Source: an uncultured Acetobacteraceae bacterium (GTDB lineage Bacteria > Pseudomonadota > Alphaproteobacteria > Acetobacterales > Acetobacteraceae). From it: DNA of 32,689 bases. The position numbers and the translations under genes were made by a program. The stretch spans positions 1 through 32,689 of the forward strand of contig CAIRCM010000089.1 in assembly GCA_903877125.1 (NCBI GenBank), written 5' to 3'. Below the pieces are notes generated by a model. That model was given only the letters and a program-made list of their open reading frames with translations. It was not told where the DNA came from and did not search any database. Below are positions 25,933 through 29,753 of the stretch, in pieces. Positions within the stretch are counted from its first letter, which is position 1. Each line of letters starts with the position of its first letter.

Positions 25933-27225
25933 ATGTCGACCGAAATCAAGGTGCCCACCTTGGGCGAAAGCGTGACCTCCGCGACCATCGCGCGCTGGAT
26001 GGTCCAACCCGGCGATGCCGTTGCCGCCGACCAGCCGGTGGTGGAACTGGAAACCGACAAGGTCACGGTCGAAGTCTCCGCTCCCACCGCCGGCGTCCTG
26101 GCGGCGATTTCCGCACCCGAGGGGAGCGAGGTCGAGGTCGGCGCCCTCCTCGGCGTGATCGATGCCGAGGGTGCCGCCGCCAAACCGGCGGCCCCAGCCC
26201 CGGGCCCGGCCGCCAATCCGACGGCCGGGGTTCGCCCGCCGCCGCGTCCCCTTGGGCCGGTCGCCCGACCGGCCGTGGCACCAGCCCCAATCCACGCACC
26301 GCTGCCCGCCGCCGCGAAACTGATCGAGGAGCAGAACGTCGCACCATCCGCCCTCGGCACCGGTTCGGGCAAGGATGGCCGTATCACCAAAGGCGACGTG
26401 CTGGCCTTCCTCGCCCGCGCCAGCGCGCCCGTCGCACCGCCATCCAAACCCACCGAACCCGTTTCCGCGGCACCTCGCCCAGCCCCGGCGCCCGCGCCCG
26501 TCCCGGCTTCGAAACCGGAAGCCGAGGGCGAAGAACGCGTCCGCATGACCCGCCTCCGCCGCACCATCGCCGCCCGACTGAAGGAGGCGCAGAACACCGC
26601 CGCCATGCTCACCACCTTCAACGAGGTGGATATGTCCGCGATCATGGCCCTGCGGACCCAGTACCGCGACGCCTTCGAAAAGAAGCACAACGGCGTCCGC
26701 CTCGGCTTCATGAGCGTCTTCGTCCGCGCCTGCTGCGTTGCGCTGAAGGAGTTCCCGGCGGTGAACGCCGAGATCGACGGCGACGACATCGTCTACAAGC
26801 ACCACGTCCACATGGGCATCGCCATCGGCGGCGCCAACGGCCTCGTCGTCCCCGTCGTCCGCCATGCCGACCAACTCGGTTTCGCGGGGATCGAGGGCGC
26901 CATCGCCGATTTCGGCAAACGCGCCCGCGACGGGGGCCTGAAAGCGGATGAGCTGTCGGGCGGCACCTTCAGCATCACCAACGGCGGCATCTACGGTTCG
27001 CTGATGTCCACCCCGATCCTGAACCCGCCGCAATCGGCGATCTTGGGCATGCACAAGATCCAGGACCGCGCGATGGTCGTCGGCGGCAAGATCGAGATCC
27101 GCCCGATGATGTACCTGGCGCTGTCCTACGATCACCGCATCGTCGACGGGAAGGAAGCGGTGTCCTTCCTCGTCCGCGTCAAGGAGGGCGTCGAGGATCC
27201 AAGGCGGTTGTTGCTGGATTTGTGA
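25933..27225 (+). CDS. sucB: Dihydrolipoyllysine-residue succinyltransferase (E2 of 2-oxoglutarate dehydrogenase)
   Basis: The core subunit that accepts the succinyl group on its lipoyl arm and passes it to CoA. The 430-aa protein has one lipoyl domain with K43 in ETDKVTVEV, an Ala/Pro-rich linker, a peripheral-subunit-binding domain ([35 protein letters not shown]), a second Ala/Pro linker and the catalytic domain. That domain has [38 protein letters not shown] and the active-site DHRIVDG (H401, D405). The ribosome-binding site AAGGAG overlaps the TAA of sucA, so the two are tightly coupled. Instead of lpd, the next gene is an unrelated nuclease-like gene 19 bases downstream. Confidence 0.98.
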
Positions 27226-27244
27226 TGGTACGGTCGCTTCGAAC

Positions 27245-27667
27245 ATGGCACAGTCCGCCCGCCGCCCCCCAATCTTTGAGGTATGTGTGCATGGCCAGGC
27301 TTATTCCGCGCAATCGGATAACCGGAACGCGCTCAATGCCTGGAAGCGTCACGTGACCCGCGAAGCAGTTGCGGCCTGGGGTGAGGCGGCACCGCTGGCT
27401 GGCGCCGTCGAACTGCATATCGTCCATTACGGTGAAACCCGCTCGGGCGACCTGGACAATTTGAATAAGCCGATCCAAGACGCCATGCAGGGAGTCGTAT
27501 TCGTTAACGACAGGCAGGTATCGTCGGTACGTGGCGGCTGGCGGGACATTGAGGGCGAATACCGCGTCCGCTACATCCCCGCGGTATTGGGCGCCGCCTT
27601 CAGCGATGGCAGGCCATTCATCCATATCCGCGTGTGGCACGCGATCACGACCAAGGAGCTGGATTGA
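27245..27667 (+). CDS. RusA-like Holliday junction resolvase family protein
   Basis: A 140-aa protein that opens FEVCVHGQAYSAQSDNRNAL and carries the RusA signature GDLDNLNKPIQDAMQGVVFVNDRQV. The acidic residues D69, D71 and D89 and the lysine K75 sit where E. coli RusA has D70, D72, D91 and K76 (from memory), so the active site appears intact. RusA enzymes cut branched DNA and are usually phage-borne; here the gene stands between sucB and lpd. No clear ribosome-binding site precedes the ATG, and its stop overlaps the next start by one base (TGATG). With the next gene it may form a two-gene DNA-processing or defence module. The role of the pair is inference. Confidence 0.8.
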   Translation: MAQSARRPPIFEVCVHGQAYSAQSDNRNALNAWKRHVTREAVAAWGEAAPLAGAVELHIVHYGETRSGDLDNLNKPIQDAMQGVVFVNDRQVSSVRGGWRDIEGEYRVRYIPAVLGAAFSDGRPFIHIRVWHAITTKELD

Positions 27668-28365
27668 TGTCCGCTACGACCGAACAATCCGTCGAGCGCG
27701 CCCGCAAGCGTGTGATTCGCGACTACAAACGGCGGGGCTATCGTGTGACGGATCACCCCACACCCGATCTCGTTCCGGGTTTCTTGAGAGATTTTCACCC
27801 CGGTCTCATGGTGGAGCGTGCGGACGATCATGCGGTGGTTGAAGTGCGAACCGCACAGTCCCTGAAGGGCGCGAACGAATTCGTCGAATTGGCGGAGCGG
27901 ATCGAAAGCACTGAAGGCTGGCGCCTCGAGTTGGTCACCGTTCGTCCAGAGGAGCCGTCAACCGACCTCTCGTATGCAACGAAAGCATTCAGGGCGTTAT
28001 GCGAGCAACCCATCACGGCGCATGGCTCTGACGTTTGGACGGTATATTTTATATCGTTGATAGAGGAGCTTGTCACGGAACTCGCGCGTACCCAAGGTAT
28101 ACGGCCTCGCGACAAGTCCGTGGAATTCTACGTGCGGGAATTGGCATTCCGCGCTGTCATCGATGACGATACCGAGGCGGATATTATGAATGCCCTGGGC
28201 CTGCGGAAGAGGGTGCTACTTTCTCCCAACCAGATGCGGCAGACCGCACCTGACGTTGCGAAGGATTTGGGAAAGCTGTGCGAATTGCTGTTTGCGATGC
28301 TGTCGTCGGCTCGAAGCGACCGGACGAATCATCGCGGTGCGATCAAGAATACAGGGTTCGCATGA
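27667..28365 (+). CDS. Restriction-endonuclease-fold (AHJR-like) protein, active site probably altered
   Basis: A 232-aa protein. The N-terminal part (about 15-95) reads like the AHJR-like branch of the PD-(D/E)xK nuclease fold: [19 protein letters not shown], then [20 protein letters not shown], then [19 protein letters not shown]. In relatives as I remember them the strands read RPDL and VVEVK; here they are HPGL (G at 46) and VVEVR (R61), so the catalytic Asp and Lys appear lost. The C-terminal half is helical ([20 protein letters not shown]) and unknown. Codon use is less GC-rich than in the neighbours, especially near 28030-28070, suggesting transfer. It starts one base into the RusA-like stop, and lpd starts four bases before its end, so it is firmly inside the operon. 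Confidence 0.65.
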
Positions 28366-29753
28366 CCCAAACATATGACGTCATCGTCATCGGCGCCGGC
28401 CCCGGCGGCTATGTCTGCGCGATCCGCGCCGCGCAACTCGGCCTCAAGGTCGCCTGCGTCGAAAAGCGCGCGACCCTCGGCGGCACCTGCCTTAATGTCG
28501 GCTGCATCCCCTCCAAGGCGCTGCTGCAATCGTCGGAGGACTTCGACCACGCGGCACATGGCCTGTCCGACCACGGGGTGATCGTCGAGAACGTCCGCCT
28601 CGACCTGACACGCATGCAGGCCCGCAAAGCCGAAGTCGTCGGCGCCAACGTCAAGGGCGTCGAGTTCCTGTTCCGCAAGAACAAGGTGACCTGGCTGAAA
28701 GGCACCGGCCGCATCGTCGCGGCGGGGCAGGTGGACGTGGACGGCACGATCCACACCGCCAAACACATCGTCATCGCCACTGGCAGCGAGAGCACGCCGC
28801 TCCCGGGTGTGATCGTGGACGAAAAGCGCATCGTCACCTCCACAGGCGCGCTGGAACTGGACGCGGTGCCGAAACATCTGGTGGTCATCGGCGCCGGCGT
28901 GATTGGGCTCGAACTCGGCAGCGTCTGGCGCCGGCTGGGCGCCGAGGTCACGGTTATCGAATTCCTGCCCCGCCTCGTCCCGTCATTGGACACCGAAGTC
29001 GCGACAGCGTTCCAGCGTATCCTGGCGAAACAGGGCCTGAAATTCCGGCTGGGCTCCAAGGTCACCGCCGCCACGCCGACCGCAACCGGTGTCTCTCTGA
29101 CCGTCGAACCCGCCAAAGGCGGCCCGGCCGAAACGCTCGAAGCCGATATCGTCCTGCTGGCGATCGGCCGCCGGCCCTACACGGAAGGTCTCGGCCTGGA
29201 AGCGGCCGGCGTCGCGCTGGACGAACGCCGCCGGATCAAGACCGACACGCATTTCGCCACCAACGTCCCCGGCATCTACGCGATCGGCGACGCGATCGCC
29301 GGCCCGATGCTGGCCCACAAGGCGGAGGACGAAGGCGTCGCATTGGCCGAACGCCTCGCCGGTCAGGCGGGCCACGTGAACTACGATGTCATCCCCAGCG
29401 TTGTGTACACATGGCCGGAAGTCGCCGCTGTCGGCCAGACCGAGGAAGAACTCAAGGCTGCCGGGATCGCTTACAAGGTGGGCAAATTTCCATTCCTCGC
29501 GAACGGCCGTGCCCGCGCGATGGGCAGCACCGACGGGTTCGTGAAGGTGCTGTCGGACAAGACCACCGACAAGCTGCTCGGCGCCCATATCCTTGGGCCG
29601 GACGCCGGCACGCTGATCGCGGAACTGGCGTTGGCGATGGAATTCGGCGCCTCGGCCGAGGACATAGCCCGCACCTGCCATGCGCATCCCACCTTGAATG
29701 AGGCCGTGAAGGAAGCCGCCCTCGCCGTGGATGGCCGAGCGTTGCACATTTAG
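28362..29753 (+). CDS. lpd: Dihydrolipoyl dehydrogenase (E3)
   Basis: The flavoprotein that re-oxidises the dihydrolipoyl arm of SucB and reduces NAD. The 463-aa protein begins with the FAD-binding GAGPGG (11-16). The redox disulfide C43/C48 lies in [16 protein letters not shown]. The NAD-binding motif is [16 protein letters not shown], and the second FAD contact is [19 protein letters not shown]. The C-terminal active-site pair H442/E447 lies in HPTLNE. The start overlaps the preceding stop (ATGA), so it is translationally coupled to the restriction-fold gene; the frame is open upstream, but [16 protein letters not shown] is the natural start. A strong stem-loop follows its stop. Confidence 0.97.

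Follow-up and report, generated by a model that had tools for sequence, protein, structure and literature searches.

RusA is a resolvase known best from phage recombination, and its E. coli representative (family PF05866, structure 1q8r) has four positions, D, D, K and D, which we take to be the catalytic residues. In the type VII toxin-antitoxin system HepT-MntA a HepT-like RNase domain is part of a coupled two-gene unit, the antitoxin being the adjacent MNT nucleotidyltransferase. A table in Anantharaman et al., 2013 (PMC3710099) lists a DUF86 HEPN which is now and then joined to an REase domain resembling archaeal Holliday junction resolvases (REase_AHJR). That survey also describes AbiD1, a HEPN abortive-infection protein which interferes with a phage RuvC-like resolvase, and notes that loss of the motif need not abolish the toxicity of a HEPN protein. 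The name RusA does not appear in its main text, nor in passages of PMC12839542 and PMC8195603. The locus described here joins these known families in a combination, a RusA gene followed by an AHJR-HEPN gene, of which no description was found among the open-access PubMed Central papers listed by the searches.

The DNA analysed (hereafter the window) is a 32,689-nt stretch from an uncultured Acetobacteraceae bacterium, in which the pair lies within the 2-oxoglutarate dehydrogenase operon, between sucB and lpd. This placement, as originally predicted, agrees with the ORFs and with the flanking genes, since 2-oxoglutarate dehydrogenase E1, sucB and dihydrolipoyl dehydrogenase all score above their NCBIfam cut-offs. 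The features are as follows:

25933 to 27225, + strand: 5' flank, sucB (2-oxoglutarate dehydrogenase E2); ORF, NCBIfam TIGR01347 at 512 bits against a cut-off of 379
27245 to 27667, + strand: RusA-family endonuclease, 140 aa, four of four catalytic positions; PF05866, PHROG 140 (RusA-like, E=8e-11), profile A2 aligned to 1q8r
27449 to 27511, + strand: RusA active-site codons by alignment, D69 (27449), D71 (27455), K75 (27467) and D89 (27509)
27667 to 28365, + strand: AHJR-HEPN protein (P0002), 232 aa; ORF, PF18743 at E=2.3e-16
27667 to 27957, + strand: N-terminal REase_AHJR half (Hjc-like PD-(D/E)xK); Pfam, alignment and Hjc structure matches, dN/dS 0.06
27958 to 28362, + strand: C-terminal HEPN/HepT-like half with a degenerate motif at residues 180-185 (28204-28221); HepT-like matches in relatives, dN/dS 0.53
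28362 to 29753, + strand: 3' flank, lpd (E3); ORF, NCBIfam TIGR01350 at 576 bits against a cut-off of 409

The sucB stop codon is the TGA at 27225. The pair overlaps by 1 nt (TGATG), with the AHJR ATG at 27667 inside the RusA stop codon, and the second gene overlaps lpd by 4 nt (ATGA), with the lpd start at 28362 inside the AHJR stop, both as the original prediction had claimed. Its claim of tight coupling to lpd also agrees with the consensus scans of 27100-28500, which found neither a sigma-70-like promoter nor a terminator-like site, and its remark on codon use with GC3 values of 0.72 for RusA and 0.65 for AHJR against 0.83 for sucA, 0.86 for sucB and 0.84 for lpd, a comparison made within the operon. 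The gene order of the window is repeated in genomes G062 (locus L005) and G212, and the window's assembly holds one copy of the pair.

The first protein belongs to the RusA family (PF05866, E=8.2e-9, 36.6 bits against the Pfam cut-off of 22.8), and its residues D69, D71, K75 and D89 align to D70, D72, K76 and D91 of 1q8r. The four active-site residues are invariant in 15 of the 15 rows of profile A2. On its sequence, then, the protein appears to be what was first proposed, a RusA-type resolvase with an intact acidic site. It differs from E. coli RusA in belonging to a subfamily found on chromosomes and plasmids and linked to AHJR, and its activity is a predicted one.

The second protein is a member of PF18743 (REase_AHJR-like; 59.9 bits against a cut-off of 26.1), and the AHJR profile matches the archaeal Hjc resolvase structures 2eo0 (E=1.3e-4) and 1hh1 (E=2e-3) across the PD...ExK core, which bears out the PD-(D/E)xK-like fold expected of it. 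The original prediction had overlooked a third domain. The 17 aligned AHJR proteins have PD...ExK in their N-terminal half and, in most rows, an LRNxxVHG motif in their C-terminal half. By sequence the latter is a HEPN/HepT-like RNase region, in which most relatives carry a motif of the RNxxxH type. The HepT-like family PF01934 (cut-off 23.5) scores above its cut-off in L011 (26.2), L034 (25.8) and the Azospirillum copy L035 (24.1), which, with the Hjc matches, speaks for a two-domain module protein. Counting against this, PF01934 falls below the cut-off in L014, L019 and L109 and is absent from the Pfam matches of L005-L008 and L060, and the window protein itself has no HEPN family among its Pfam matches at E<=10. 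An Agrobacterium relative is annotated as HepT-like in its plasmid record. A single-sequence AlphaFold model of P0002 was uninformative (pLDDT 41), and a PDB fold search with it gave nothing at E<=0.001, the best matches, enoyl-CoA hydratases at E=0.016, being deemed meaningless. The proteins of L007 (1099-1419) and L008 (1177-1497), from G220 and G202, have in common an additional C-terminal stretch of some 107 aa, with 36% identity across 105 columns; a GIY-YIG-like appearance of this tail was seen by eye only, and Pfam gave two sub-cut-off DUF matches and none above cut-off.

In the window the REase site reads G-E-R rather than D-E-K, through D to G at residue 46 (27802-27804) and K to R at residue 61 (27847-27849), and the HEPN motif reads R-K...L in place of R-x4-H. 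With PD changed to PG, ExK to ExR and the HEPN R...H lost, nuclease activity of the second protein is improbable in the window. It is of the same two-domain kind as the REase_AHJR-DUF86/HepT-like fusions noted in the survey (PMC3710099), but has lost both motifs. Two Holliday-junction-related folds, RusA and an Hjc-like domain, do stand side by side as was first suggested; the supposed two nucleases are, however, better described as one intact nuclease with a degenerate partner, since one site is kept and the partner's sites are lost. By motif, RusA alone is catalytically complete in the window, because the window and L005 both have G-E-R and lack the HEPN motif.

These losses were placed in context with 31 pairs (L046, with its split RusA, and L060, L105 and L106 were excluded from the trees and motif table). 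RusA keeps D-D-K-D in 30/31 pairs, the HEPN R...H is present in 26/31, and the REase D-E-K in 16/31, the lysine position being non-K in 14/31, a departure from the archaeal Hjc enzymes. The HEPN motif is missing from five pairs, namely the window, L005, L039 (G212), L040 (G220) and L041 (G202), and both trees place these five together with support (100/100 and 100/99). In this group the REase site reads D-E-K in L039 and L041, D-E-R in L040, and G-E-R in the window and L005. The near-constant RusA site, and an RNase motif missing only from the window's own group, both favour the module reading. Counting against it, the window copy, without two of its three active sites, may have a role which differs from that of the family.

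Selection was estimated between the window and G062 with simple Nei-Gojobori counts on two sequences and 95% bootstrap intervals. RusA gave a dN/dS of 0.105 (0.05-0.19), AHJR residues 1-97 gave 0.058 (0.01-0.14) and the HEPN half, residues 98-232, gave 0.53 (0.29-1.0), against 0.14 for sucB and 0.06 for lpd in the flanks. The AHJR half is under purifying selection and the HEPN half looks relaxed, a pattern which also favours the module reading. The conservation of the AHJR half despite its two lost catalytic residues suits a binding role. The toxicity of motif-less HEPN proteins reported in the survey (PMC3710099) advises caution before calling the HEPN half of the window dead.

The window pair is one of many copies of a two-gene module that is both conserved and mobile. 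The gene for RusA lies directly upstream of AHJR in 33 of 35 AHJR loci (the window, L005, plasmid L021, L022, L034-L037, L038-L060, L099, L105, L106 and L109), a count which leaves aside L032, L033 and L062, where only the HEPN part of the query matched and no RusA lies beside it, and L061 (G780), a decayed pair. Among the 33, RusA is split over two frames in L046 and the AHJR frame is broken in L105 (G057), which with L061 counts as a decayed copy. The 35 loci are partly non-independent: the RusA domains of L036 and L054 are identical and their neighbours shared, the copies on Rhizobium plasmids are nearly the same as one another, the suc copies of the window and L005 represent one insertion, and L042, L049 and L050 have a common CoA-transferase neighbour family. 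At 16 distinct junctions the two genes are separated by anything from a 4-nt overlap to a 1-nt gap, with start codons chosen by the analyst. RusA and AHJR protein distances correlate at r=0.896, with 0 of 2000 permutations as high (31 pairs; shared species history contributes). The expectation that the pair co-occurs and moves as a unit was thus upheld by the survey.

The association also holds when approached from RusA. Profile A2 matched 14 of 289 genomes of the class. All five matches at E<1e-30 have an adjoining AHJR (two of them, the window and G256, are rows of the profile), compared with 0/8 of the weaker matches within a 1.5 kb flank, where the contig extends that far; the remaining genome is G780, with its decayed pair. 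Adjacency, this split between strong and weak matches, and the co-divergence all count in favour of the module. Against it stand the two exceptions among the 35 loci, L060 (G841) and L106 (G223), in which the RusA profile found no copy elsewhere in either genome, and the HEPN-only loci, likewise without RusA. Beside the exception in G223, its sister locus L109 (G218) has the same upstream helix-turn-helix gene (MqsA-like by eye), and RusA is present in G218 only.

Presence is patchy. In the genus, P0002 matches 12/33 genomes and profile A1 15/33, at 18 places, counting the window's own genome; in the class sample A1 matches 11/385 genomes, four of them through the HEPN part of the query only. 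In the phylum sample PF18743 occurs in 6/398 genomes (five above cut-off, own genome included), and among 14 control genomes in one, Caulobacter vibrioides. The P0002 query found three Rhizobium plasmid records, and a Rhizobium copy used as query found six, including those three. A DNA search gave no match in E. coli genomes.

The gene order, the coupling and the matching distances would also be expected of a toxin-antitoxin system in which AHJR-HEPN acts as toxin and RusA, encoded upstream and coupled to it, as antitoxin, and three relatives match the HepT toxin model NF047751 below its cut-off. We consider this improbable: an antitoxin would not need the catalytic residues which RusA keeps in nearly every pair, the partner is not an MNT nucleotidyltransferase, and the G223 AHJR-HEPN protein retains its RNxxxH motif without any RusA beside it. 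The module further differs from HepT-MntA in that its HEPN domain is fused to an REase domain and, in the window, has lost its motif.

Within the genus the sucB-lpd gap was readable in 25 genomes, at 26 loci of which one is truncated by a contig end. The gap holds the pair in three (the window, G062 and G212), is 1-13 nt long in six, contains a glyoxalase-family gene in four, and comprises 66-659 nt of other or unrecognised sequence in the remaining 12. The glyoxalase-family (PF00903) gene was seen in four species of the genus (L073, L077, L080 and L081), and insertion into this gap may therefore be general. In the comparison of the window with G062, dS is 0.60 for RusA and 0.26 for AHJR, with 0.82 for sucA, 0.65 for sucB and 0.43 for lpd; neither gene of the pair evolves faster than the flanking range of 0.43-0.82. 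Between the window and G212 it is 0.88 for sucB and 0.76 for lpd, whereas for RusA it is 4.3 and for AHJR saturated, which disfavours simple vertical inheritance of these two copies. Because the pair is so much more divergent than its flanks, we read the window and G212 copies as separate insertions of related modules in one gap. The three suc copies group together in the AHJR tree (93/87) but not in the RusA tree, so an old linkage followed by exchange is a possible alternative.

In G221 and G219, where the C-terminal 230 residues of sucB are 95% identical to those of the window, sucB and lpd are separated by 1 nt, the pair having been lost or never present. This and the other sequence found in the gap elsewhere weaken the earlier suggestion that the pair would be hard to lose without damaging lpd. 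Such short gaps in close relatives, together with the lost HEPN and REase sites, the relaxed HEPN half, the low GC3, and the decayed or split copies L105, L061 and L046, are what might be expected if the window copy were a functionless, decaying passenger kept solely through its embedding in the suc operon. That explanation seems to us distinctly unlikely, as the comparison of the window with G062, in which both frames are open, shows clear purifying selection on RusA and on the AHJR half.

The genomic surroundings give mixed signals. Apart from the pair itself, no neighbour set among the 25 largest listed occurs in more than 4/32 loci. Pfam was run on module neighbours only, 109 of 209 ORFs within about 5 kb, covering 25 of 27 loci. 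It found 135 families, and of the 25 listed none occurs in more than 3/109 neighbours; the most frequent, counted three times or twice, belong for the most part to solute binding, CoA-transferases, cobalamin, signalling and transporters, and defence-like matches are few. This lead of metabolic and transport families counts against a conflict role. PADLOC models on the neighbours gave 39 families, and 12 of the 25 listed are AbiE models, matched by the AbiE pair of one locus. For RusA and P0002 themselves PADLOC-DB 2.0.0 gave 0 families at E<=10. AHJR protein queries had no match in the phage collection, and scans of viral contigs with three relatives returned no locus, one stretch in one scan encoding a relative; this absence is likewise a point against. 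In favour is the copy on the Rhizobium sp. T136 plasmid, which lies near AbiEi/AbiEii, a restriction-like ATPase, a type IV REase-like protein and GajB/GajA (Gabija-like) matches. Of the joint DNA-processing or defence function first proposed, the defence part is thus weakly indicated by the T136 neighbours, set against the metabolic neighbours and the lack of PADLOC and phage-collection matches.

Two further observations concern neighbouring genes. A convergent ATPase gene lies near the pair on three Rhizobiaceae plasmids (L034:10679-12613, L037:18274-20250 and L022:3732-5678), and those of L034 and L037 resemble restriction enzymes of the BbrUII/HgiDII family, at E about 1e-21 but with a score well short of the curated cut-off. 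In G218 a second weakly HEPN-like protein, with no PADLOC match, is encoded about 2.7 kb from the module (L048:3877-4689).

Other neighbours bring DNA repair to mind. On the Agrobacterium CFBP2177 Ti plasmid the pair directly follows ligD, with genes for ImuA, DNA polymerase Y and an error-prone polymerase beyond, and in T136 ligD and xth lie about 7.6 kb and 4.7 kb upstream of the pair. The pair could accordingly be one of repair or recombination, RusA resolving host junctions and AHJR-HEPN serving as an accessory junction binder with no conflict role, a proposal which the nearly invariant RusA site also fits. We regard it as rather unlikely, since patchy presence within the genus, movement from site to site, and an RNase motif in most pairs would all be unusual for a repair pathway, and no repair family is found among the 25 Pfam neighbour families listed of the 135.

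The explanation we prefer, tentatively and at somewhat less than an even chance, is a mobile, coupled RusA and AHJR-HEPN DNA-conflict module, of which the window carries a lineage without the RNase motif. In this module a RusA endonuclease gene is translationally coupled to a second gene, in which an Hjc-like REase domain precedes a HEPN (HepT-like) RNase domain; the two products may be coupled at the protein level too. The module travels as one unit and occupies many host sites, some within host operons. RusA would be the constant catalytic part, cutting branched (junction) DNA, and such DNA may also be what the AHJR domain docks on or recognises. The HEPN half would, in most members, contribute an RNase output, halting growth upon foreign or aberrantly branched DNA in a defence or addiction-like manner. 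The sub-lineage to which the sucB-lpd copies belong has lost the RNase motif, and the window copy has lost the REase site as well, which would leave RusA with a conserved, non-catalytic, probably DNA-binding partner.

A bolder version is possible but doubtful. Here the module would be an undescribed two-gene immune system, in which RusA and the Hjc-like domain would read and cut the branched replication DNA of phages or plasmids and license shutdown by the HEPN RNase. The window lineage would have discarded the suicide arm and domesticated the DNA-cutting arm in a TCA-cycle operon, with at least two insertions there.

The module links a resolvase with a HEPN RNase domain as one portable unit of two genes, conserved among its copies. 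The contents of the sucB-lpd gap suggest that this one position, within a single genus, takes unrelated genes in different species. The series of copies, intact, REase-degenerate, HEPN-degenerate and RusA-less, allows a direct test of the role of each arm.
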